This document shows positions 1 through 20,459 of a stretch of DNA of 64,000 bases, piece by piece. Position 1 is the stretch's first letter, and every line of letters begins with the position of its first letter. A program made the position numbers and the translations under genes. This DNA is from Polytrichum commune (lineage: Eukaryota > Streptophyta > Polytrichopsida > Polytrichales > Polytrichaceae), in contig OX485805.1 in assembly GCA_950295325.1 (NCBI GenBank), forward strand, positions 42,000,758 through 42,064,757. The letters run 5' to 3'. Below the pieces are notes generated by a model. The model made no database searches and was not told where the DNA came from. It worked only from the letters and a program-made list of their open reading frames with translations.

Positions 1-861
1 AAAGTTAAAGAAGAGACATGGGGATGTTTTATCTCAACCACACCCACTCAAGCAAACAGGATCATCCAATACCTTGTGCCCTACAAGCAGGAACTCATGC
101 ATGTGATCACGCCGCAAGCAGCCAAAGCAGAACGTAGGAGTCGCGGCGAAGGACTCACTGAAGAAGAAATCAAGAAAAAGAATGCTACCATGCTATGCCT
201 TTATGGCCTTCACAAGATGAAGAAAGTTGAGGATACAAAGGAATCCATCAAAGCAGTCTTAGGTGGATTGAATGTTGCATCTTTTTACTTTCCAGGGCAA
301 GTAGGAGATCTCCACAAAGGCACGGCCAACGTACAATGCCTCAACGCCATTGTCTATAGACAATGGGTAGGCAAGACGGTAGAAATATTTGGTAAGCATG
401 TCAGTTTCACGCCCCACCCTAAAACCCTACAAGGTGCAATACCACCCACCAAGGAAGAACAAGAAAAGCTTGGGTTTTGTGATATATCCACAGCAATTGC
501 GGATACTCTCGAGGCTACTCGCAATGCACCTCCAAACAAAAGTAAAAATCCCGTATTCTCACGTGACGACCTAGATGCACTAGTTGAGACCGCCATAGAC
601 AAACGGAATGGGCAACTCATAATAGAGCTCAAAACCGAGCTTACGGCCGAAATACACAAAGAAATGGGCGAATTTCAAAAAGAGGTATCTTTGGAAGCCG
701 ATGTACGCGAAGAAAGAATCACACGGAATTTGACAACACATGTCAAAAATCAACTAGCGGAAATAAGAAAGCAACTAGCGCTAACATCCCAAGCGGTTGA
801 CATGACAACCAAAGCGCTAGACTCCATTCTAGCACCAACACAACCACAATTGGAAAACTAG
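1..861 (+). CDS. LINE ORF1p-like protein, 5' end outside window
   Basis: The reading frame is open from base 1 to the TAG at 859-861. It begins upstream of the window, and the first in-window GTG (76) is not a convincing start. The product has a middle segment with the look of a compact nucleic-acid-binding domain (VEIFGKHVSFTPHP, about codons 125-138). A charged C-terminal third, rich in Glu/Lys/Gln with hydrophobic spacing, reads as a coiled coil. This layout (globular domain plus coiled coil, no Cys-rich gag zinc knuckle seen) fits an ORF1p of a non-LTR retrotransposon. The A/C-rich sequence that follows and the LINE ORF2 downstream support that. Codon use is more balanced than in the A/C-rich DNA after it. 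No database match was possible, so a plant-specific transposon accessory protein remains an alternative. Confidence 0.5.
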   Translation, partial: KVKEETWGCFISTTPTQANRIIQYLVPYKQELMHVITPQAAKAERRSRGEGLTEEEIKKKNATMLCLYGLHKMKKVEDTKESIKAVLGGLNVASFYFPGQVGDLHKGTANVQCLNAIVYRQWVGKTVEIFGKHVSFTPHPKTLQGAIPPTKEEQEKLGFCDISTAIADTLEATRNAPPNKSKNPVFSRDDLDALVETAIDKRNGQLIIELKTELTAEIHKEMGEFQKEVSLEADVREERITRNLTTHVKNQLAEIRKQLALTSQAVDMTTKALDSILAPTQPQLEN

Positions 862-2924
862 ATTGGACAAACAATCACATAGCCCACCTACCAAAAATGT
901 GTACTCACACAAAAAAAGAAAAACGAAAAAAGAATAAAATAGCATTTGGAAATGCTAATAAAACAAATAAAACCAAAGCATTTATAAATGCTCTCACACA
1001 AGTTCAAAGCATATCAACCCAACAAAAAATAAAAAACCAAAAAACAACACAACCTCAAAAACACAAAATCAAAACAACAATTAAAAAGATACACACAAAA
1101 AGCTACAAAACAACAAATACCATACACCAAATTACACACCCAACATACATACTTAGAACAAACACAACTAACCCAATCAACAAAACAAAATACACAAATA
1201 AAATAGAAGACACATGCACCCCACCACCCCATAACACAAACCGAACCAATAAACAAAAAAACCTCCAAAACATAATCAAAATAACAAACACAAACCTAAA
1301 ACAAAACCGCTCTACCAATCTCATCCATAACTCAAACAAACCCATACACAAACCTAAACAACGTAAAAAATCAAATCACACCATACCCAATAACAAATGT
1401 AAACACACACAACAAAAGCACATAAAACACCTCCCCAAAACATCTACAACACACCCCCTACTCACATTATACAACAAACCAAAAGTACAACAAAAAAACA
1501 AAAAAGACATACAAAAAACATATCCAATAAACCTAAAACAAACAAAAAACAATAGCCCAAAACCCTATAAACAAGCACACAAAACCACAACACTTTCTTA
1601 TACCCCCACAACAACGAGAAACAAACCAACACACACACACATAAAATCAAACAAACACATACCCAAAGAAAAACAAAGTATAACCACAAACAACAAAGAC
1701 AAGACAAATCTCCAAAAAATAACCCTAAAACGGGCTCGGCCTACCGGTCTCGCACTAAAAAAATACAAACACCCCCAAAACAATACACCCAAAAACATTA
1801 AAGAAACAAAACACAAATAAAACAAAACACAAATAAAACAACATCCAAACCCATAAATAAAAACAAAATTACCTATTTGATACTAAGAAAGTATGTACCC
1901 AACACGCCAAAAACAAAAACAATACACACAACTAAACCCATAAAAACAAACACCACACCTCTCATCAACATACACCAAATTAAGAAGCAGAAACATCATA
2001 TGAATACAATAAATATATCAACAAAAAACCCAAATCTAAATCAAAGCCAACCTAATGAATTGCCCCACAACCAAAACCAACACAAACAAACAACTAACAT
2101 AAAAAACATTACCTTACCAAACCACACCAACAAACATACACAACCTAGCATCATTACACCCCCCCCCTCAGAATCCCCCTAACAACAAAAACACACAAAG
2201 ACTCAACAAAAATCAATCCAAAATACAAAACATAGTAAAAATCATAAGACAAAACAAAGAAAATACTAAACAACACAAAACAAACACACTAAGAAAAGAA
2301 AAAAGTAAAAAACACAAATCCCAAACCACACCCAACATCATAAAAAATACAAAACACCCAAACCCCATAAACAACACAAACTCCACAAAAAACCATATTA
2401 AACAACAACATCCGAAACGCGAAAATACCAAAGAAACCAACATAACTAAGATACCCCCCACACACCTACTACTACCACATCATAAAGAAATCAAAACCCC
2501 ACTAAAAGCAACACCAAGGCTCACCCACAAAAACAAGAATTTTTTTTACATAAATACATCCAAACCCCATAAAACTAAAAGCACTCACGAAAAACCACAA
2601 AAAACTCCAAATACATTAAGCAAACAAATAAACAAACAAAGCCACACCACCCTCCCCAAAAAAATAACCAAACAAGAGCCGAAAACCAAACTTAGAAAAA
2701 CACCAAAATTACCCAATACAAACATACACTCCGTATCACCACCTAATACTAAAACAAATAAACAACTAATAAACCAAAAAGATATGCCAAACGAAAACCC
2801 ATCCAAACCAAAAAAAACAAAAAATCAAAAACACAACACACAAATGAAACAAAACAAAACAAATGGCCACATAAGAGATACCAAAGACTTTAAAACAAAG
2901 CCTACACAAACACCCAGAAACACT
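862..2924 (+). mobile_element. A/C-rich LINE-derived tract with long open frame 897-1820
   Basis: The plus strand is almost devoid of G and poor in T for 2 kb. The frame 897-1820 (307 codons, ATG start) and 1877-2182 are open and encode Lys/Thr/Asn/Pro/His/Gln-rich low-complexity protein. Many TAA triplets are present but fall in the other frames of this stretch. The same skew marks the N-terminal part of the LINE ORF2 at 5707, so this is most simply retrotransposon sequence downstream of the ORF1-like gene. No domain is recognised. Whether the frame is translated is unknown. Confidence 0.45.
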
Positions 2925-3008
2925 GTGGTACTTTTGGGCCACCCCCTTTCGAGGGAGCCTAAAAGTATCACACAAGCCCTTCGGTGAAGGTGGCCTGCAT
3001 TTGCAGGC
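2925..3008 (+). other. Cluster of RNA-like stem-loops at end of A/C-rich tract
   Basis: Bases 2925-2939 (GTGGTACTTTTGGGC) pair with 2957-2971 through 15 positions including two G-U wobbles. The loop closes further as CCCT-TTCG-AGGG. Two more hairpins follow: CCTTC-GGT-GAAGG (2978-2990) and GCCTGC-ATTT-GCAGGC (2993-3008). An alternative pairing, GGCCACC (2937-2943) with GGTGGCC (2989-2995), is perfect over 7 bp and excludes the first hairpin. The cluster sits exactly where the A/C-rich composition stops. It may be a structured retrotransposon UTR or ribozyme-like end. No catalytic core was proven. Confidence 0.5.
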
Positions 3009-4229
3009 GCCCAAGCCGAACCCGGATGATAGGTGTATAACGTGAGTAGTTAGATTTTTAAGGGAGATTAAATATGCGTCGTAGTACCTCCGGAGGTTAG
3101 GCCTTAGTTTTTTACTAGTGTGGCTTTAAACTCCACTAACCAATTTCATATCTAGTTCTAACCTTAACCTACAACCTATTCTACGCGCAGACGCACCAGC
3201 CTTGAAACCAAGGCAATCCTAATTTGTGAATTGGGATGGTTCTGATACACCCAACCGGGTGTGACTCATACCACCCTAACTCAACGAACGGAATAACGAC
3301 AATTTGATGGACCATTCAATTCTTCCTATTTCTTTATTTAGTTCTATTTAGTTTTCTAAGCGGGGGAACTTGGCCTAAGTCCCACCCTTCACACAAATTC
3401 CTTCTTAATTACTTACTTTTGTTTGCACGTCCTAACTTACTACATTAACATATTAGGCATCACCCCTTACCTCGGGTCTCTTGCCAACAAGGGTTTACGA
3501 TTTATTTGGTATGTTTTGATTGTTAAATGTGTTTACACTGGATAGACCACGAAATGCAACTCAATGGGACCAGGGTGACGGGCGACCTGTAGGTTCAACT
3601 TGTTGCGCAATCTTCATAAATTGGGGCCATTACTCCCAATCTATGGGGCCAACAACATAATAGTGGATTCGCGGGTCATTAACCCCACCTTTCCACCAAC
3701 AACATTTAGAGTGGTCGTGTCGGTGATTAATCCGACTTACCACACACGAAACTTGCTAATAAATGAAGCTACTACCACAAAACATACCAAGGGCCCCGAA
3801 AACAATGGAATTGGGTACTCCCTTGGCGGTCAAGTGGTCAAGCCACTTGACCTTACGAGATAGGTGAGTGGGTTTAGAGATGCGTACCTTAGCCGTGCTC
3901 CCTCCAATCCTAAATGGAAGGCTTAAGGTTAGTTAATTTACCTCAATTTTCCTCGGTTGATTTGGGCTTGATGTAGGCCGAGCCGCTACCTCCTTCCTTG
4001 CTCCACTTTCCGAGCGTCGACCTTGCCTCCTTCTTTGTAACTAGTTTGGTAGTAAGCGTACCTTAGTTAACAATTAAAATATAAAGTGTTATTTTGCCCT
4101 GTAATTTAATCCTAAGCATAATATTTATACTTAGTGCACTAAATTATCTTTCCAATGATCTAAAAATCACTCTAATCGGATAAGAAATGCAAAAGTTATG
4201 AGGGTTGGAAGTGTGAGGTCGATTCAACC
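3009..4229. other. Non-coding, repetitive intergenic DNA
   Basis: Composition is balanced. Short open frames (for example 3600-3863) show no recognisable domain. There is a small perfect palindrome ACCTCCGGAGGT near 3086. No RNA gene or intact transposon is seen. The stretch may be untranslated or linker sequence of the surrounding retroelements. Confidence 0.35.
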
Positions 4230-4860
4230 GACCCTTCCAACCCACCTATCTACCTTCTAACTTCAAAAATTCATAGCACATTCCTTACTACTTGGATCTA
4301 GGCTTTCCTTATACCATTGGAAAGCTATGAACAAGCTCTAACTAGAAAAATTATGACATCAGCAGGTTGAGCTAATAGAAATTCAGCGGACTCCTTGTAA
4401 CACAGCAGTCAATCAAGAAGGCTTAAACTATGTATCTCGCCTTCAACAATTCATATCTAATTCAAATCTTAGTCAAATCAAACGTTCTATATGACCCTGG
4501 AGAGATATTAAAAATATGTGATTAGAAAGGTAAGCCGAAGTGAACCCAGCAGGTCCTCTGTAATGCAGCAGTCAACCAAAAGTTCTCAAACTATGTGTCC
4601 CATCTTGCACAATTCATATCTAATTCAAATCATCCTCAAATCAAATGTTCTAAGCCATTTTGGAAAGCTACACAAAAGTTCTACTTGGGAAAAATATAAT
4701 TTCTTGGAATTAAAATTCCTATTGGGCTCGCAGGTCTGATCCAGCAGCCGCTACCCACAAGACCACCCAGTTTTTCTACTCCATCTTTGAAAATCCATAA
4801 CTAATTGTCATCTCAACCAAATCACAAATGGGAAACGGCTATGGATAGCTATATGAAATC
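4230..4860. repeat. Four diverged tandem units, about 165-180 bp
   Basis: The phrase AATTCATATCTAATTCAAATC occurs in near-identical form at about 4448 and 4611. More diverged versions lie at about 4268 and 4790. Each unit also carries a CAGCAG(G/T)-containing stretch (4400, 4547-4570, 4740) and a 'GGAAAGCTA' word. Spacing is 163-180 bp. Satellite-like or internal retrotransposon repeats are both possible. Confidence 0.6.
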
Positions 4861-5706
4861 TCTCTAAGAGAAAAATGATAAGTATCTTGTTCTAGCTTTT
4901 GAACTAAGCCTTCAGGGCATTGGCAGATGAGGTCTATAATGCCTCTACTCAAAACTCTACCATCCAACCTACCTCTACAAAAGAAGGAATAATTTTGTTG
5001 GTGTGTTAATAAACACACAACCTAACTAGGAGAGAGAGAGTAGAGGAGGTTCTCAAGCCTTTCTTTTAGACCATTGAGAATACATGCTAAAGGATTTTTT
5101 CCTAACTACATTGAAGCAGGGCTTCGCCCAAAAACTAGAGAAAGAGAGAGAGCTACAAGGTGGAAGGAGGGGTTTTTAAACCCTCTCACAAAAGGGTTGG
5201 ACCCCTCCTCCACCGGATCCATTTTTCAAACCCTTTCCCGAAATTTTGGCTCGGGGGTTTTCCCGGTTGAGGTTGCCATCCTCTCGCCGAGGTGGCTCCG
5301 ACAGAAAACCTTTAGAAATCTTTCTAATTTTTCCGCCATCGAGTTGGCAAGGGGGCAAGTGGGCAAGTAACCCCCTTGCTCTCTTTCTTTTTTGTCTTCA
5401 AAATTCTTCACGCCGATTTTATCTTCTTACGTAAAACACCTCCAATAGTCTTGTGTGCCTCACACTAACTAATAAACTAACACTTACTTAGCTAGCATCT
5501 ACTAACATTTGCTTAATAACTAGCATCTACTAATATTTGCTTAGCTAGTTGTTTTTACTAGCTAGCACATTTTTTCTACTTTGCTATCTTCTAGCACTAC
5601 TTAGTTTCATTTTGACCTTCCTTCTTCTAGGCTAAATGCTAAATGAACTAATTTTTCCTAAATTCCCTATCAATTCTAACTTTTAATGCTAACATTCTAA
5701 CTAAAG
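4861..5706. other. Non-coding stretch before the LINE ORF2
   Basis: It contains GA-rich patches (5028-5050, 5140-5160) and several near-identical 'CTAGCATCTACTAA' words at 5490-5570. No coding or RNA gene is visible. Stops are dense in all frames just before 5701, so any 5' portion of the LINE ORF2 is not preserved here. Confidence 0.4.
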
Positions 5707-7728
5707 GTGATCCCGCAGAGTGGTGGACCACTCAAAGGGTTCACAAACACCAATAACACTAATACAAAAAATCATAATCATAATAATAATAAAAACAACA
5801 ACACAAACAAAATAATTCCTAACACTTTGGACCAAACAAAACAATACACAACAAACAAAAAACAAACACATCAAACACCACCAAAAACAAACTTAAACCT
5901 CACCAACAAATACACGGAAATAATAAAAATAATCAAAGAATACCCCTGGAGAAATAAAAATGCATACAAAACACCGCAATCATACAAAACACTAAAAAGA
6001 CTAACAAAACAAACAAACATGCCCTACACCACACAAACACAAAATAACAACACCAAACACCAGAGACACACCACAATCTTAGACTATGTAATAATAAATA
6101 AAAACAACAATAAAAAACATTGGTACATAATCTATAACAAACAAAAAATTCTTACCATAATACATACCTTCTCCCTACACTTACTCTTAATAATTAGCGG
6201 AGACATCAAAACTAATCCAGGTCCTATGCCCAACATCCTACAACTACACCCATCCACACATAAAAATAGATGCAAAAGATATTTTATAGAATGCACAATC
6301 AAATTACAACCCGAATACCAACACTTAGCAAAACAATTCTCCCCAATCATAAACATAACACACCCAAAACACCAAGACGCAACCACAATCCATCCACACC
6401 TATCAAGATATATTCACCGAAATCAACACCACCCGCCTCCATGCATACTATATGCGCTTATCACCACAATTAGCCCAGTACTAGAGACATGCAACCATAT
6501 ACTAATACAAACCCCAGAACCAGACTGGACAACGAAAATCTTAGAAAAGATGGCCTTACTCCGTAATCCACCAGAAAGACACATCACAACCCCACACCCA
6601 TACACACAATTCCTGAAAACAAACCAAGACATCATAAACCCGCCCAACACCATCCACAAAGAACTATATGAATTCATCAAACAAAATAACGAACCACTAA
6701 CCGTACAACTAATGAAAAACAAATTCCCTTTTTTACCGGAAAATCTACTTACAGAATCATTAAAATGCAAGGAACCACTACTAGAATACTCCCACCCCCC
6801 ACCACTACCCGACACACCAACACAACACCCCCAAACGAACCAGACAACATACCACAATACACACATAATCACATGGAATGCCTCATCGCTAAATACAGCC
6901 CTGCCAAACCTACAACAACTTATAATCAATACACCAACAAATCCGGCAATCATTACTATACAAGAAACCAAACTAACCGCAACAAAATTTACAAAATATA
7001 TACAAAATTTATTCCCCCAATATAAACTAATATTCAACAACACACATGCATTAACAAGATGTATACAACAAAGAATACCATATATTCCTGCAAGAGGTGG
7101 ACTCCTTATGCTCATAAATAAATCCTACGCATACCCAACTAATATTACAAAAATCCCCACCCCAGCTTCAATATCACCATACCTACAAATTATAGAAATA
7201 AACAACCAACCCCTACAACCATGGCTAATAATACACATATACATGCCATCACACGAAGAAGATATAAGACTTATACCAACATTACAACAAAACATAACAC
7301 AACAAATCACCAATCACCCAAACCACATACACATACTATGTGGAGACTTCAACAGAGACATAGCACTAATTGGACGACAAAATGAATACATTATAACACC
7401 ACCACAAGCACAGGACCTTGAATGGCACACATTTGTACACAGCCTTCAACTTACATATGTCCCCACTAATAGTTCATACACTAGACAGGGTGGCCAATAC
7501 TATAACCAAACTAGTCTAATAGACGGATACTATATAAAAACGCCCAACAATACCTTATACACATCAACCACAAACAATGACCACAACCTTAACTCAGACC
7601 ACTCCCCAGTAACACTACATATACCGAAAAACACACTGATAGCCCGATGTATGCCAACAATAACAGATAAACCCCCAAGGATATTAAATCCTATCCCACA
7701 AGCAAATATTGAAAACTTTAAAACATAA
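5707..7728 (+). pseudogene. LINE ORF2 N-terminal part with 2A-like motif and APE endonuclease
   Basis: The frame is open from 5701. The first codon usable near the 5' end is GTG (5707) and the first in-frame ATG is at 6019, so the true start is unclear or lost. Residues 1-150 are Asn/Thr/Lys-rich. A hydrophobic run then leads into SGDIKTNPGP (6196-6225). About 200 unrecognised residues follow, then an exonuclease-endonuclease-phosphatase domain (roughly residues 385-645). Its hallmarks are HIITWNASS (N near 6874), TIQETK (catalytic Glu, about 6955-6972), CGDFNRD (about 7337-7357) and NSDHSP (7591-7608). These are the metal- and phosphate-handling residues expected of a LINE APE nuclease that nicks target DNA. 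The frame ends at TAA 7726-7728, but homologous coding continues in frame (FFEENALQI...), so this is a nonsense mutation, not a natural end. Confidence 0.85.
6178..6225 (+). other. 2A-like ribosome-skipping motif in LINE ORF2
   Basis: The frame reads LLLIISGDIKTNPGP with the Gly-Pro junction between GGT 6220-6222 and CCT 6223-6225 (ORF codon 173 is the final Pro). The pattern D-x-x-x-NPGP preceded by a hydrophobic stretch is the class of oligopeptide that makes ribosomes skip the Gly-Pro bond. It is known in several animal and trypanosomatid non-LTR retrotransposons. The canonical Glu (DxExNPGP) is Lys-Thr here, so activity needs testing. It would separate a roughly 172-residue hydrophobic-tailed leader from the nuclease/RT protein. 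Confidence 0.75.
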
Positions 7729-8219
7729 TTTTTTGAAGAAAATGCACTCCAAATAAACGAACTCACAAACATACTAAACACAAACCAACTAACAACTGAG
7801 CAATGGCAAACATCCTGCACAAAACTAGATTACCTAATACAGAAGATCTCTGACAAAATCCAAGATACATGCAGTGCCCCAACCCTCCCAAATCTCCCAA
7901 ATCGTACATCCCAACAAGGAGGTTTTTTACCAAGAAAACTACAAAAAAATGGAAACATCATCTCTCCACTTACCACCTAATCCGAAAAGAAATATACACT
8001 ATAAAAAAATCACCAAATTGGCCAACACACCCAATAATAGAAGAACTAAGAAACCACACCCAAGTTAATATCCCACCTCCCCCAAATCAAGAACCTAACC
8101 AACAAAATTGGATAAAAACATTAGCTCAAATAGCCAAAACCTCACATATACACGCTAAAAAAATAACAACAAAATACACCCAAGAGTGTATAAAAAAAGC
8201 TATATCCAAATATAGATAA
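7729..8219 (+). pseudogene. LINE ORF2 linker, frameshifted and stop-interrupted
   Basis: Coding continues in the endonuclease frame after the 7726 stop (residues FFEENALQINELTNIL) until about 7870-7950. It then passes to the RT frame, in which residues from 7869 to 8216 read coherently (NWPTHPIIEELRNHTQ and on). A TAA at 8217-8219 interrupts that frame. One indel and one nonsense change therefore separate the nuclease from the RT. No domain is recognised in this part. Confidence 0.7.
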
Positions 8220-9995
8220 ATATATGAAAAAAACCCTAAGAAAATCAATAAACGAGTCTTTAAAAATCTAGAAACACCCCCATTAGATTGCATTATAGAC
8301 AACCAAAACAACATACTCACAAATCCAGGGGACATAGCCAATGAAATCCATAAACAACAATCAATCAGTAACAGACCCACAGTTCCAACATGCTACCACC
8401 AACCTGAACACACACCATATTGTACTTGTGGTGTAAGACAATACCCATGGCATGACATTGACGGATTTGTCATAGACAAAAGAGGAAACCCACAAACCCC
8501 GTCACATGAATACTTCAACAGAGAAACATATGACATCAGTCTAAAAAACTTAGCAAACCACAAAACACCAGGCCCAGATAAAATTCCCAACATCATTCTA
8601 AAAAACATACCCGAAAGCTTCCACAAACTACTCTTCCTATTCTTCTCTCACTGCTACAAACAAAAACAAATCCCAACATCATGGAAAATAAGCCTAACCA
8701 TACTCTTATACAAAAAAGGAGACCCCTCCAAATTAACCAACCACCGACCAATTGCCCTAGCAAACACAATATACAAATTCTTTACGAGTACCCTAACATC
8801 TATATTGTCAGCATACGGAGAAGAACACCAAATTCTACACGACAGTCAAGAAGGGTTCAGAGCAGAAAGAAGCACGTCCAGACAACTCCAACTCCTTATA
8901 GCAGCACTAGAAGACGCAAGATTTACAAACCAAGACATATATCTATTATATATAGACTTCAAGAACGCTTTTGGCTCTCTTGACCACGCAAGATTATTAG
9001 CCATCACCAAAGATCTAGGCTATCCCGAAGACGTTGTCACCCTTATAGGAAACATTTATTCAAACTCCAATACCATATTCACTGGCGAACACTTTGGAAA
9101 AACAAAACCCATACCTATCCAAAGAGGCACAATACAAGGTGATACATTAAGTCCATATCTCTTTCTGATTTTCCTAGAACCTTTACTAAGATGGCTACAT
9201 AGAAGAAAAAACGGATACACGTTTGGTACATCCAAACTCACAATAAGCTCAGCGGCATATGCAGACGATCTACCAGCCATCACAAGCAACCTCCAATCAA
9301 TACAAATCCAACTCAACAAATTAGAGAGATATTATGATTGGGCCGGAATGGACTTAGGAGTACCAAAATGTGCCATTACAGGATGCCCAAACAAATCAAA
9401 AACAAAGCCTGAAACGTTCAAAGCCAAAATTCAAGCCCAAAACATCAACTACAAAAATCAACCCTTACCTATTCTACACCAAAACAAACCCTATGTATAC
9501 TTAGGCATACACCTAGTACCCTCACTTAAATGGAAACTCCAAACACACATCACCTTGACCAAAATAATAAACCAATGCAAACAACTAACAAATTGCCCAG
9601 CTACAATTAAACAAAAAATAAGCATGGTAGACACCGTCATTAGAGCCGGTATAGCCTACAGCTTCTACGCAGTTCCATACTCATTACCTACAATTAAAAA
9701 ATTAGACAAGAAAATAATCAGAATCCAAAAAACAATATGCGGCTTACCCAAATGCACAACAAACATAATAACTCAACTACCACACGACCTATTTGGATTA
9801 GAAGCTTTCTCACTAAAAAACGCCTACCTAAGATGTATTGGCGAACAACTTAGAAACGCATTAAACGATCCCGGGAGGCTAGGAACGATCTACAAAGGAT
9901 TCATACAACATTTACTAGCCAAACATGGAGGGGCAGAAGACATACAAAAAATAAAATACCAAGACTGTATCAGATCACCAACGACAAGAACACTG
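8220..9995 (+). pseudogene. LINE reverse transcriptase domain and thumb
   Basis: The frame is open from 8220 to 10019 without a stop. Recognisable RT blocks in order: NHKTPGPDKIPN (about 8553-8588), YKKGDPSKLTNHRPIAL, the GFRAERSTSRQLQLL fingers block, motif A LYIDFKNAFGS with Asp codon 8955-8957, motif B RGTIQGDTLSPYLF, motif C YADD at 9258-9269, motif D GVPKCAI and motif E YLGIHL. The product would copy LINE RNA into DNA at the nick made by its endonuclease. Upstream of the fingers is a Cys/His group (TCYHQPEHTPYCTCG, about 8388-8432) not usual for this position. All catalytic Asp residues are retained, so decay elsewhere is recent or modest. The last residues up to 10019 are read-out into foreign sequence. 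Confidence 0.92.
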
Positions 9996-10296
9996 TGTAT
10001 ATGCATTGTTATGGTTTGAATTTGAGGGGGTGGATATCGTATAACTCTATTGGGAAGTGGTGTGTTGGGTAGTTGATTTTTGGGTGGTTGTAGTGTGGGG
10101 CTTGTTGCCATGCCTTAGAGTATTTGGATTTTTTTGTGGGTGGTGTTTTGGGTTGGGTTATTGGTGGTTTTAATATTATATAGTCCAAGTATGTTGGATG
10201 TGACTGCGTTGTGCATTTGGGGGTTATTTAGGGGAGGACCATATTTATGAATTCCTATTATGGTGGTGTATTGGTTTTCTAATTGATGTAGGTATT
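9996..10296 (-). other. G/T-rich block abutting the truncated LINE
   Basis: Composition switches abruptly from A/C-rich to G/T-rich at about 9996. This is what an A/C-rich retroelement inserted on the opposite strand would look like. No protein homology is visible on either strand. Confidence 0.4.
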
Positions 10297-10400
10297 TGGG
10301 CCCTAAACCCCCACCCTTATGCGTCTGTATCCGGGTGAGAGCTAGGGGCTCACATGTATCTACTTGACTCCTTGTTGGCTAATGGAACCAAATCTTCAAT
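10297..10400 (-). repeat. LTR-like end, inverted copy of 15060-15130
   Basis: The reverse complement of 10297-10345 reads CACCCGGATACAGACGCATA then AGGGTGGGGGTTT. It aligns with CACCTGGATTACGATGCATA then AGGGTGGAGGTTT at about 15096-15128. Similarity extends about 35 bp further upstream. Two copies of one sequence therefore face each other across about 4.7 kb. The sequence from here to about 13.1 kb could be the reversed LTR body, but I cannot align it all by eye. Confidence 0.45.
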
Positions 10401-12160
10401 TCTTCAACCATAAACTTATTGCAATCACACCTTTTTATTTCATCGGCAAGAGGTGTCAAGTATTTAAAAATACATTTACCCCTTGCCGTTAGAACACAAC
10501 CCCATCACTCTTTACTCTGTCACACCTCGCCTAACAATCCAACATTACTAACTTAAACTAACCTTGGGTTGAATCTAACCTACCCAAGTAATGTAATGGC
10601 CCCAACCCCTTCTCCTTCTACTCTAACTCTTGGTTTCTAGCTAATGCACCCTCTACACTTCCTAGTTATTACCCTCATAGCTACATTAAATTGCTACCTC
10701 CCTAATCCCCCTAGCTAATCAATCCCAGCTGCCTAATGGTATTATCAATTCCTCAGTTAAAATTCGGAACCTCAGTCTCCACCGGTTGGCCAAAGTATAA
10801 CGTTGTTCGGTAGCACCACAGGCCGTCAGGGCCCGTCATGAGCCGTCATCGCCCGTCAACGGCGATCTAGCCTCGGTGCGTGTCAGTACCCTGTTCTCCT
10901 GCAAGCATGGTCCCCTGACCTCGCTCTGTGCTCAAGCCAGTGGTCTCATTCGTGTTTGCTTCGGAGAGGCCTAAGGTTGAGTCACACTCCCTTCTGGCCA
11001 CCGCATTGCCTTAACGCATATCGCCTCAATTCACCTTGTGAGGTTCCTCCTCCCTCGCACCTGAATGCCAGTAACTCGGTGGCTCTCCCTCAGTATGCAA
11101 CTGTCTGCATTGTGTTTCCCACTCCCAGATGTATAATCCCCCTGCCTAGGTGATTACCTCCTGATTGCTGACCAAATTCCCCTTTAAGGCAGTCGCCTCC
11201 ACCCCCTAATCAGCTCTCCCCCTGGGTCCCAGCTCCCTCTACTAAGGAATCAGGCGTGTCCATCTGCTCATATTGCAGCTCGAACTTCAACCGCACGCTC
11301 CCTTTCGGCCTCCCAAGCTCCCAACTTTGCACATATCCCTCAGCTCGTTTCAGCCCCAACAATTTGTGGCTGTCTTCCTACATCAGCAGGCTAGCCCCCT
11401 GCCCTCGATGTCAAAAGAAAATGGAATTCGGCAGAGGGTCAGCCTCCTACCTCCGCCGCTGTGAGTGTCGAGAGAGAGAGTTTGTCTAGACTAACCGTCG
11501 TTACAGTGGCAGATACCGTTCCCCGGGAAAAACTAGGGGTACAGGGGCCCCTGGTCTTAATCGAACAACTCACCATCCTAATGGAATTAATAAAACCATG
11601 TTACCTAGGTCTAAAGCCTAACCCTCACGACAATATCAACCCAGCTTTACTAAAAACAACTAACCTTTTATGCTATAAATCCAATTACAATCTAAACTCT
11701 ACTTCCACTCTTTTTATGTTTTTGTTGTTTCAATCTCAATTCCAAATCCTAGTTTTACTGATTTCAAATCATAACACACAGGTGAGCACCCATTTTGGGC
11801 TCACATCCGACTATAATCATGTCTCGGTAATCCCTCCAAACCTCTTGTCTTTCCTAGCAATAATCACTATAAACTACCTCATCATTTAAGTTCAGGTGGT
11901 TACTTAAGACGTCTCCCTCTCTTGTTCCTTTTGGCAGTTTCTACTTCGCCTTCATCAACTTCCTCTCTCACAGGCAATAGCCTATTAGGTTACTCTCGAC
12001 CCTCGGCCATGGTCGCACCAAACTCTCGGCATTCGGCTCTCTATTTCTGTCTCTCGACTCTCTGTAGAATTTCTCTCTCTGTTGTGCATTAGTGTGACTT
12101 AGTCGTCTCTGAGGATCACTCATCCTTGTATTGATTCTCCTATCTTTACAATATTGGCCA
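10401..12160. other. Pyrimidine-rich non-coding DNA
   Basis: C/T-rich sequence with short open frames (10956-11153, 11256-11489, 11461-11889) that show no domain. At 10823-10865 a (G/C)CCGTCA word recurs four times at about 11-bp spacing. It is probably retroelement-derived (see the inverted LTR-like pair). No gene is supported. Confidence 0.35.
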
Positions 12161-13030
12161 CCTTATGACACTCTTGGCTATGGCCCTTATCTTACTTCGC
12201 TATCAGGCAATAGTTCACTTCTCTTGAAAACTCTTCTTCAATTTCTAACAACAATGCTCACGGCATCAGACACGTGCTACAGACTATGGCCCTTGCAATT
12301 CTATCCACTTAGGCTATAGTCACTCTCCTTCACCGTAAGCTTTTCTTCTCATTTTGACTTAGGTTACTCTTCAAGTTCTTGCGGTTATCTCTCTCTCTCT
12401 CTTTTTCTTCGGCCAATCGCTCTGAGTTTCTATGAACCCTGGCTATAGCCTATGCCTTCTCTGCAACAATTTGCTCTTTGTGAATCGACCTAGGGTGGCT
12501 TCTTAACTTCGACTCACCCTGTTTCTCTCACAATACAAACTATAGTTTTTTTCTCAGGTTTGATCTATCTCACTCTTCCGGTGCCACTACTCTAATTCGC
12601 TAAACATATTCTCTCATCTTCAATCAACAGTTCTTCACATTTTACTCACTTGCTTTACTCACATTGGTTTCTCCTCACTCCATTCTCCAATACAACACTA
12701 TCATGCACGGATTCAACTTACAAATACCATGCACAAAATATTGCCATACTTGCATAACTCAAATGACCCTCTTTACTTAATTGATTCAAACTCAAATTTG
12801 TTCAGCCGCATCCCCCGATGGTGGTGATGCTCCTATGCTGATATAACTTCAAAGATGTTATCTTCAACTAGCTCTATGGTCTATAGCCTGACTCTCTGCG
12901 GCTATGGCCTTAGCATATTTAACAAGAGGTATCTTCTCCTTGGCGATGGCTCGCTTATCAAGCTCGGAGCTCCCGGCGGTTGCAACTCCCAAAACTACTT
13001 TCCTCGGCTATAGCCTTTTGATTTCATCCT
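12161..13030. repeat. Recurrent GGCTATAGCC-type palindromes
   Basis: The 10-bp palindrome GGCTATAGCC or one-base variants occur at about 12173, 12283, 12308, 12440, 12879, 12900 and 13007. Related ACTATAGT words lie at 12540 and 17270. Spacing is irregular, so this is a dispersed motif inside one element and not a tandem satellite. Confidence 0.5.
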
Positions 13031-13130
13031 AAACTAACTTTCATCTATCATTTTAGTTACTTTATCATAAAAAAAAAGTTTTTTCTTTCTTACTACTAGT
13101 CCATGGCCAGAAAAATGGTATTACAATAGT

Positions 13131-15138
13131 GTTGGGGGGGATGGTTACTATTATGTGCATTTCTGTGTGGGTGGCTGGGAGGGTTTTTTTTTTCTCTTTA
13201 TGATTGATTATGATGATGGTTGTGGCGTTATGGTTTGTTTGGGTTGCCATGCGGTCCCAGTGGATTGTGAACCCAATATGGTGCCCACATGTGTCCTTAA
13301 TCTTAAAAGTTCATTAAAACTTAGACTTTATGATTGCATCAATTATTCAAAAACATAAAAAGAATTATATTTTAAGTTTGAATTAGAGTTGAATTTAAGG
13401 CTAGTTGTTAGCGCTTAGTGCTTGTAGGGTGGAATGATTAATTTATGAATTAGTTAGTGGGTTTATTATGTTTTAAAGCTTAGGCTAAGTAGAGTTGGGT
13501 TTGATTTTGATTGGAATGGGATCGATCATTGTCCACTTTGGGGGGGGGACACACTATTTGCCCTAGCAATTTCCGGATCACTGGACTGGAGGCAATTGAG
13601 GGTTGCCTTCGAAGGTTGGCTCTCTCTCTCTGGTCGAGGAGCGGCTGAGGCTGTCGGAGGTTGAGAGCTTGGCTGGGAGAAGCTCGGTAGCAGGGAGAAT
13701 GCGATGTTGGAGAAAAAAAAATTGACCTTGGGTGCTGAGGGTTAATGCTGGGCTAGCTACAGAATTGCACTGCAGCTACAACTCGGCGATTGAGGCCAAC
13801 AGGGTTGGTGAAGACTTAAGGCTACATCAAGGAGAAGGTGTGTGCTGCTGGGCTTGCCGTGCGGATTTCTTCTGTGAGAGAAAGGGTGTGGGATGAGCTG
13901 CCCTCGAGGCGGCTAAACAACGTTGTGATGGTTGTTGCTGTAGGCGAAGTGAGGTTAAGGGCAATGCAGGTAGGAGAGAGACTACAGAGGGAGCAGAAAA
14001 CATAGGATTCGGTCAAGCAAGGAGGAACCAGCCAACGAACTCAGTAACGCAACTGAGGTGGGGCTGCTGGTAGTAGGGAGTCGGATTCACTTGAGTTTCC
14101 GCCGAACAGACTAGGTGGGAAATGGTAGGCAGAGCGTGGTTCTCGGCAGACAGTGATCAGAGTGCAGTAGTGTTTGAAAAATGCATAATTGGGACCAGAG
14201 AATTTTCTTCAAAGGGGAGAACTCAGCTACTGGCACAGAAGCGGGATGGTTGGAACCTGGATTGGTTCGAGGAGCTGCATAGTTGAGGAAGGGAGTCGGA
14301 AGGCTAAATTTATGTTGGATTGAAAAGAAGCAATCACGAACACACAATGCACCTAGCGGATGGCTGCTGCCTCGAGAGTGTTGATAGGGATTGCATCTGC
14401 CATTGGCAAGAGTGATTTGGCTACTTGAACAAGGGAATGGGCTGGAGGTCTGCTCATGAATTGAGAATTCATCTGTAAAGCCACTGGCCGCATTCACTTA
14501 GTTGTGGCCTTGGAATGCCTGAAACCCAAGGGCGCAGGTTGGGATAAATTCCAGCAGCATAGAGGTTGTTCTTGCCAGACCTTGTAATTCGCCTCGTGCG
14601 GATGGTGTGAGCTACTGGGTCGTTGGTGAGGGGCAGGTATAGGAAAAAGGCGGAGTGAGCTGCCGATCGGGTGGAGAGGTTGCGGCAAGCACAACCGGCA
14701 GTTTGTTGGTTCTAGGGGCCAGGAGGTGGGTCAAGCCGAACAAGATAGTGGGAAATCTGAACGGGCAGAGGGGGAACACATGTATGGGCAACTGCAGTTG
14801 GACTTAATGAGTTATTGGGTGGTGATTAATTAGTGTAGGCAAGGACTGTGTGGATAGGCAGCTGAGCCAAGCATGAAGTGACATTAGTGGATAATTATTA
14901 GTAATAGGTGTGTGGTAGTTAGGAGATTTGTTGGTGTGGCATTATTCATAAGTAAAGAGGTTATAAGTGTTTTTCAACACCTGTGACCTTGTTCCCCATA
15001 AGTAAAATTGTGAGACTAGTCACATTGGTTGTGCTCGGTGGTTGAAGTTCATTGCTTAGAGGTGTTACTGAGATACGTTTGAGCTACATGCCTTCACCTG
15101 GATTACGATGCATAAGGGTGGAGGTTTGTGGCTGACAT
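13131..15138 (+). mobile_element. Probable LTR-type sequence (limits approximate)
   Basis: A TGTTGGGGGGG start (13131) and a ...GGCTGACA end (about 15138) would frame a roughly 2-kb G-rich LTR followed directly by a PBS-like sequence. The terminal ~65 bp recur inverted at 10297-10400. No coding domain lies inside. No matching 3' LTR was found in the window, and the 5' boundary is a guess from TG. Confidence 0.35.
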
Positions 15139-19296: not shown

Positions 19297-20232
19297 CTAC
19301 CAAACTAACCAAGAAAGAGAACATTCTCAAGCAATTGGATAAAACATAAACAAAAACGAAACATTTTAAACACAATCATTAAACCCCGCATGATATATGC
19401 TTATTACGCAGTCCCATTCTCCAAACATGACATCAAAAAACTAGACAAAATAATTAATAAACTCGCCAAAGAAATATGCAACATACTCAAAAGCACGGCG
19501 AACATCCTCACACACCTCCCTCATGAAGAGTTTGGTATAAACATGACATCACTCCTCCCACACTACATAAACTGCATAAAACAACAACAAATACAAGCTC
19601 TCAACGACCAAGGACAACTAGGCACCATCTACCAAGGTCTAGCCAATATTATATCTTCCAAATATGAAGGCTCACTACACCTCCCCAAACTTAGACAACA
19701 AGCTTGCACAAGGTCACCCATAGCCAGAACACTCTTCCTACTAGAAAAAAAGTATGAAATACATGCCACCACCACCAACCGTGCATTCCCCATAAAAAAA
19801 CACCCCACTAGAGCAACACATGGAGATCCAACCCGTCCTACACCAACCTCACAAACAATGCAAAGACAAAATCCCAAAAATACTTGGACAAACTATATAC
19901 ATATGGTATCATAACACTAGCACAAATCCAATACTAACCCCGGAGGAATTTTGAACCCTAAACCCAAACCTATAATACCTTCCCCTACACTCACAACCCA
20001 ACTCATTGAATTCACATATTGTCACGACAGAAACCATATTCAAGCCCTCACACACAAACACACTAAATACAACCCCTTCATCCACACTATGCAAACCAAT
20101 GGATGGCAAACCAACCCACTAATCACCATCACAACCGGAGTAAGAGGGGCCGTACACGAACACTCCATTCAAAAATTTACTCACCTAAAAATCCCAAAAG
20201 TAACCATAAAAAATCTCATGAAACGCCATTGA
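19297..20232 (+). pseudogene. LINE ORF2 3' fragment: RT thumb and C-terminal domain
   Basis: From about 19297 the frame reads ILNTIIKPRMIYAYYAVPF and aligns with DTVIRAGIAYSFYAVPY of the element at 5.7-10 kb. Co-linear matches follow (KKLDKIINK, ANILTHLPHEEFG, LNDQGQLGTIYQG, SPIARTL). The frame is broken by TAA 19912-19914 and TAG 19918-19920 but then stays open to TGA 20230-20232. That last part contains LIEFTYCHDRN (about 20002-20034), NGWQTNPLITITTGVRGAVHE and KIPKVTIKNLMKRH. This C-terminal block resembles the E-x-K nuclease-like tail of algal and basal-plant LINEs, with Thr where Lys would be expected. It belongs to a different copy from the upstream LINE and is much diverged. The tract to about 20450 may be its 3' UTR, including a poly-C run at 20291-20306. 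Confidence 0.8.
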
Positions 20233-20459
20233 ATACCTCACATACTTGGTTCTAAACAAAAGAAAACTTGAAAACAAAGAAACACCCATCCCCCCCCCCC
20301 CCCCCCAAATAAAATGGGAAACATTTGTACTACTATAGAGCCCACCTCCTAGGAGGCATAACACCTTATGTTGCATCATGGATTACCGTGATCAACATTA
20401 AGCCAACGGGAATTGGCTACAGACGTTACTTTTTCTTTTCTTTTCTTTTATGTAATGCA

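Follow-up and report, generated by a model that had tools for sequence, protein, structure and literature searches.

The window analysed here, a stretch of 64,000 nucleotides (C3:42000758-42064757 in a searched genome of 407.8 Mb and 64 contigs), raises the question of whether a retrotransposon of a land plant uses a 2A, or StopGo, peptide to separate its enzymatic protein from what is translated ahead of it. A sequence-only reading had reported a hydrophobic stretch followed by NPGP in the ORF2 frame of an element that it called a plant LINE, and both are present, as the plus-strand frame 5701-7725 (675 residues) reads FSLHLLLIISGDIKTNPGPMPN, also given as HLLLIISGDIKTNPGPMPN, with the NPGP codons at 6214-6225. 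In the searched genome, contig C8 (146,561 bp) carries rbcL, which matches Rubisco large chains in the PDB, and an ORF taken to be accD, and these plastid genes point to a land plant, perhaps a seed-free one, as host. Based on the homologues of this frame in the same genome, we propose, with a probability of about 0.85, that the motif is a functional StopGo peptide of a Dualen-like non-LTR retrotransposon family and that it would release ORF2p from a long translated leader. The proposal builds on what the sequence displays directly, namely the motif and its conservation, the codon constraint, the open leader, the start/stop overlap and the domains. That the Gly-Pro bond itself is skipped would follow from these features together with precedent in other systems.

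The features of the window copy are collected in Table 1. It is a broken, atypical and decayed member of its family with a minority K state at the Glu position of the core (p14). Residues 231-516 of ORF1 of a long-frame relative (L068) match window positions 1-858 with 88% identity (tblastn), and ORF1 ends in PQLEN and a stop. The decayed leader that follows contains 40, 31 and 9 stops in its three frames, and the stops and the frame change between 7726 and 8219, upstream of the reverse transcriptase (RT), make the window copy a pseudogene. Similarity to relatives is lost at 9992 (blastn, L068) or 9995 (tblastn, ORF2 of L067), so that the PCIF1-like, RNase H and restriction-like endonuclease (RLE) regions are missing. 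When the whole window copy was compared with L068 by blastn, matches were obtained only at 1-1076, 1476-1554 and 6177-9992, and because this similarity is patchy across the leader, the borders of the latter were set by composition. The unrelated-looking DNA inside the leader gave no blastn match to L068. The earlier reading had given a figure of 172 codons; the Asn of the motif is residue 172 of the stop-to-stop frame, but the count runs from a stop inside this unrelated-looking DNA and 5701 is not a natural ORF start. No Pfam domain above cut-off lies before residue 390 of the window frame, and Rfam gave no elements in window 1-14000 at E values up to 5. A possible structured stretch, GGCCACC...GGTGGCC, was seen at about 2930-3000, in the unrelated-looking DNA of about 2.8 kb.

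Table 1. Features of the window copy (window coordinates).
Feature	Position	Strand	Basis or remark
ORF1, 3' part	1..861	+	stop 859-861; begins before the window; tblastn with L068 ORF1 residues 231-516
A/C-rich leader, ORF1 to 2A, decayed	862..2930	+	composition; 3' border approximate
23-nt GC-rich element GGGCTCGGCCTACCGGCCTCGCC	1732..1754	+	2 mismatches in the window copy
Unrelated-looking DNA inside the leader	2931..5735		base composition, A/C-rich flanks on both sides; borders approximate
Leader remainder ahead of the 2A	5736..6171	+	open frame, composition; lineage A dN/dS 0.71 at -45..-17
Putative 2A/StopGo peptide	6172..6225	+	hydrophobic LHLLLIIS, then GDIKTNPG/P
Predicted skip site	between Gly 6220-6222 and Pro 6223-6225	+	
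ORF2p N-terminal domain after the 2A, MPNIL...	6226..6867	+	conserved in homologue alignment
APE-type endonuclease domain	6868..7611	+	PF03372 4.4e-07, PF14529 6.5e-07
Reverse transcriptase	8715..9512	+	PF00078 7.6e-26
3' end of the window copy	9513..9992	+	similarity to relatives ends here

The motif is real and far beyond chance. Searching the genome at the protein level with the 675-residue frame as query (66 of 1643 candidates scored, 69 rows) allowed the motif region to be fetched for 64 copies, which carry DIExNPGP in 48 cases, DIKxNPGP in nine and a damaged core in seven (DIETNLGP twice, and DIKTNLGP, DIETNPRP, DIETNPGS, DI*TNPGP and DIEPHPAP once each). The check proposed in the earlier reading, whether sister copies lack NPGP, shows that it is kept in 58 of the 64, and only the DIEPHPAP copy has lost the core altogether. 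The same reading had taken the missing Glu as the mark of a variant class, and as a family feature this is ruled out, since 48 of the 64 copies have the canonical E and K is a recurrent minority (nine copies with NPGP intact). Exact DNA matches to DI[E/Q/H/K]xNPGP, with Ile only at p13, number 438 genome-wide (E 267, Q/H 153, K 18), and the reversed controls for the E, Q/H and K patterns gave 0 each; the homologues and these empty controls rule out a chance motif. All of 16 further E-pattern loci sampled outside the first set have a related protein context (weakest, with frame damage, in L079, L082 and L087), and none of these 16 showed the motif outside this superfamily. The strict StopGo core (D/G/C/N)(V/I)ExNPGP is found in the family (48 of 64 copies; 267 sites), and the window copy departs from it by its K for E. 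Ahead of the core lies a hydrophobic run, in which all 78 rows have Leu/Ile at -9 and Leu/Ile/Met/Val at -8. Homologues and genome-wide counts thus agree with the suggestion that a plant non-LTR element carries what appears to be a 2A-like recoding motif.

The distribution of codon-level constraint points in the same direction. The dN/dS values come from pairwise codon comparison within lineages, among copies with few or no stops, and because the pairs are not independent they are indications and not tests. At the 2A (-14..+3) dN/dS is 0.17 in lineage A, 0.29 in C, 0.06 in B and 0.15 in the sister lineage D (last 2A), and in the downstream protein it is 0.14 (A), 0.15 (C), 0.10 (B) and 0.28 (D). 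Immediately upstream, at -45..-17, the values are 0.71 (A), 0.88 (C), 0.44 (B) and 0.45 (D, last 2A), and farther upstream they are 0.82 (A), 0.51 (C) and 0.66 (B) at -100..-46 and 1.01 at -58..-46 in D. The 2A stretch thus appears to be under strong amino-acid constraint and the sequence before it under much less. Activity of a StopGo peptide also calls for a suitable upstream context of about 25-30 residues; an L-rich stretch precedes the core here, and in lineage D -45..-17 is constrained. That constraint begins at the 2A and its immediate context is what is expected if the preceding part is discarded, and the position of the motif fits the split of a leader from the enzymatic protein that had been suggested from the window.

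The leader itself is open in the ORF2 frame in six long-frame copies. The leaders of L065-L068 (818-2537 nt) are free of stops in this frame, against 19-51 in each of the other two; the number expected from dinucleotide shuffles is 16-39, and not one of 300 shuffles per copy lacked stops. L124 and L125, for which no shuffles were made, also have 0 stops in the ORF2 frame, with 31/17 and 14/17 in the other frames. These six zero-stop copies were picked for long open frames. That A/C-rich composition would by itself keep the leader open is ruled out by the other two frames and by the shuffles. Of 22 sequences examined, 11 yielded an ORF1 stop and nine did not; in the other two, L123 and L126, the motif search put it in the wrong place. 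The 11 copies comprise the six without ORF2-frame stops in the leader, L117 with one (37/29 in the other frames) and decayed copies with 18 (L111), 6 (L120), 14 (L121) and 96 (the window copy).

We now put forward a mechanism in which ORF1 would be translated first and, in part of the family, ribosomes would resume translation at an AUG overlapping the stop of ORF1 (AUGN2UAG). The A/C-rich leader, of about 270-850 residues, would then be translated in the ORF2 frame until, at hydrophobic-GD(I/V)(E/H/Q)xNPG/P, the Gly-Pro bond would not be made, the leader would be released, and ORF2p (APE-RT-PCIF1-like-RNase H-RLE) would start with the 2A proline. Two other accounts of the motif have to be weighed against this mechanism. 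Hydrophobic-GDIExNPGP could be an ordinary part of ORF2p, such as a membrane anchor, a signal peptide or a pause site, with no skipping, and the hydrophobic residues at -9 and -8 in every row, together with the hydrophobic start of some leaders, would suit such a role. However, the near-invariant D, I/V, N, P, G and P are the StopGo positions, p14 and p15 vary much as they do in StopGo, and the constraint ahead of the motif is weaker than an ordinary domain would show, so that we consider this account improbable. In the other account ORF2 starts at the Met after NPGP, and the 2A is either a relic or part of the 5' UTR; in its favour, 74 of 78 motif rows have Met directly behind NPGP. This account is hard to reconcile with the sister lineage, where Met follows the core in only 1 of 19 cases, that one (L109) with an A/B-type ORF2 start, with the dN/dS of 0.06-0.29 at the 2A, and with a leader frame that stays open over 818-2537 nt in six copies, and we regard it as very improbable.

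As for the entry step, the start/stop overlap suggests reinitiation at the ORF2 AUG in part of the family. In six loci the AUG of ORF2 and the stop of ORF1 overlap as ATGN2TAG (L067 and L117, which belong to one subfamily, and L123-L126), with the overlap sequences ATGACTAG, ATGGATAG and ATGAATAG. L065, L066 and L068 lack this overlap, and none was seen in the decayed copies (L111, L120, L121 and the window copy). The first in-frame ATG after the ORF1 stop lies at 35 nt in L068, 104 nt in L065, where an out-of-frame ATG precedes it, and 122 nt in L066, and in lineages A and C no conserved in-frame AUG is found near the 2A. Programmed frameshifting in the ORF1-ORF2 overlap could replace coupled reinitiation at this step alone, and it would account for an ORF2 frame that overlaps the end of ORF1 by 25-202 nt in all four copies measured, three of which have no overlapping AUG. 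Yet the relation between the two frames is not fixed, being +1 in L067, L117, L124 and L125 and +2 in L065, L066 and L068, which disfavours a fixed frameshift from ORF1 to ORF2, and the AUG lies exactly at AUGN2UAG in six loci; we consider entry by frameshifting unlikely. L123 joined with L107 has ORF1-like sequence and leader in a single 801-codon open frame, for which a frame change within ORF1 is the probable cause.

The membrane-targeted or signal-like leader of the sequence-only reading may apply to part of the family. In the window lineage (L068) the leader is mostly basic and of low complexity, but the leaders of lineages B and D (L067 from 3983; the starts of L124-L126) begin with hydrophobic segments. 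Membrane targeting by the leader is thus possible, and in B and D a failure of skipping could leave ORF2p membrane-tethered, a state that we liken to the sea urchin NLR 2A proteins, as far as the literature cited here describes them.

The leaders also contain a 23-nt element, GGGCTCGGCCTACCGGCCTCGCC, which occurs one to four times (≤5 mismatches) in 16 of the 17 scanned from lineages A, B and C (L065-L068, L110-L121 and the window), the exception being L118. In six B copies it lies 289 nt before the 2A, and among lineage D loci only the mixed L109 showed it; exact 19-nt matches number 63 genome-wide, with 0 in the reversed control. KRARPTGLA as a repeated leader protein motif is ruled out because the same DNA reads SAYRPRH in lineage B (RARPTGLA elsewhere), and the element appears to be conserved as nucleic acid.

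Downstream of the 2A, three long-frame copies encode 2333-2340 residues after NPGP. The order in relatives is ORF1, the translated A/C-rich leader, the 2A and an ORF2p composed of an N-terminal domain, APE, RT, a PCIF1-like region, RNase H and RLE, where the APE domain was read in the window copy and RNase H and RLE in relatives. RNase H (PF00075) is found in L069 and L071 at 8e-13 and 1.1e-15. The C-terminal domain has invariant CCHC, PD, E and K columns in nine copies, and its AF2 model (pLDDT 72, pTM 0.73) gave six PDB matches with E<0.001, all of them R2 proteins, at a TM of about 0.47. Searched against the PDB by sequence, the RLE region gave none as a single sequence and, as a profile, two R2 chains at E 1.2. 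The fold model and the conserved columns together match an R2-like restriction-like endonuclease (PD-(D/E)xK with a zinc knuckle). When the window RT is compared by sequence with proteins of solved structure, three R2 proteins rank first, L1 ORF2p next and Bombyx R2 further down, and one tblastn scan of viral contigs found no relatives of the window RT. The fold model of ORF1 (pLDDT 50) is too poor for use. The label plant LINE would bring L1 or RTE to mind, yet the relatives have APE together with an R2-like RLE and RNase H. Membership of Dualen, judged from domain architecture alone, is probable. Dualen elements carry a cysteine protease, and the ORF2 pieces scanned, which are parts of the protein, gave no match to a cysteine protease family. 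Between RT and RNase H, PF12237 (PCIF1_WW) scores above cut-off at residues 142-237 of L069 and 115-244 of L071, where HPHN/HPPN appears in place of NPPF, the motif of the PCIF1 methyltransferase; a literature search found no paper that brings PCIF1 together with a retrotransposon.

Variation at p14 is one of the properties that set this family apart. The last 2A of sister lineage D, which is about 38% identical over the query, has H in 8, E in 7, Q in 3 and K in 1 of the 19 readable among 20 loci; the 2A core is found at 19 of the 20 fetched sites, one of them ending NPGS. When 81 distinct rows (out of 93) are placed on a tree, p14 requires 13 changes by parsimony, against a shuffled mean of 17.6 and minimum of 15, and K falls on six separate branches, although these sequences are short and resolution is low. 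In the sections of a survey that cover StopGo variants, p14=H is given as >95% active and E14Q as 26-56% active in mutants (Li et al., in PMC12846837), and K at p14 goes unmentioned in those sections. Across the family p15 is T, P, S, L, I, Q, F or A, which largely matches the p15 bias of viral StopGo in the same sections, where I and F are absent from the list (PMC12846837). The K form of the window copy may have reduced activity. The GGDIKP subfamily nevertheless comprises six near-identical K copies with long open frames, and since it has spread, either K works or skipping is dispensable.

Several loci carry more than one 2A. Seven of the 20 loci fetched by lineage D homology have two or three in-frame 2As (L091, L093, L095, L097, L099, L106, L109), with three in one open frame in L109 and L099; L092 has two in different frames, and in L083, a locus selected by its motif, two 2As lie 801 nt from each other within a frame of 2131 residues. 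Among 218 listed sites (100 of 267 E, 18 of 18 K, 100 of 153 Q/H) at least 36 neighbouring pairs lie within 1.5 kb, same strand within each, and 29 have a spacing divisible by 3, with a nominal p of 8e-9 that is weakened because several pairs share their spacing and hence an ancestor. The in-frame pairs listed are 44-267 residues apart. At 10 upstream 2A sites of lineage D, dN/dS is 0.12 at the 2A, 0.27 at -45..-17 and 0.54 in the sequence after it. Units of the D type and of the A/B type occur together in L109 and L099, a mixture suggesting that leaders were captured through recombination or template switching. From the in-frame pairs, the mixed three-2A frames and the constrained upstream 2As (0.12 against 0.54 after them) we derive a tentative and somewhat doubtful extension, in which the 2A frees ORF2p from whatever precedes it, so that elements may capture and stack foreign leaders, with p14 (E, H, Q, K) tuning the share of fused ORF2p. 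If true, these would be natural multi-2A polyproteins in a plant retrotransposon, each leader ending in its own 2A and ORF2p left undamaged.

The plant L1 and RTE elements are likewise non-LTR elements with APE and RT, but to our knowledge they lack an RLE, whereas the C-terminal domain here is predicted to fold like the R2 RLE. Dualen combines APE, RLE and RNase H (PMC4640811, in the part on this arrangement), and a table in PMC3747384 has RandI in green algae, whereas for flowering plants it lists L1 and RTE only. The present family resembles Dualen/RandI, as far as those sources describe them, in having APE, RT, RNase H and RLE together in a green-lineage host, and differs in its land plant host, its 2A, its leader and its PCIF1-like region. 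2As are known in APE-type non-LTR elements, in the literature covered here from L1Tc of Trypanosoma and from sea urchin and other animal elements, which share a DxExNPGP-type core in frame with the enzymatic protein; here the host is a land plant, the relatives have an R2-like RLE, the leader is long and apparently translated, up to three 2As lie in frame, and H, Q and K are frequent at p14. Several 2As per frame are also described for Paavivirinae picornaviruses with multiple 2A(NPGP), about 50-150 residues apart in the account consulted, but the replicon is unrelated and the upstream units here look like captured leaders of related elements. The ATGN2TAG overlap fits the AUGnxUGA formula given for coupled termination-reinitiation in SART1, caliciviruses and influenza B, with x=2 among the values listed in the relevant part of PMC5972666; in our case the stop is UAG and only part of the family has the overlap.

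Three features seem to be new: the plant host, the Dualen-like architecture and the 2A arrays. Among the papers listed in a literature search no title dealt with a 2A in a plant LINE, and as several key 2A papers lay outside that search we do not claim absence from print; a 2026 survey detected no natural use of StopGo by plant viruses, though StopGo works in plants (PMC12846837). In this family a plant genome would have a use of the motif that is natural, conserved and amplified, in elements that retain the two kinds of endonuclease. The hundreds of natural variants that the family provides (H, Q and K where E was thought needed; single versus tandem) could serve to test how StopGo works and how ORF2 of a LINE is expressed when another ORF precedes it. 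The same window holds a further remnant of the element family at 19348-19806 and 19990-20281, which is more diverged and 36-48% identical to ORF2.
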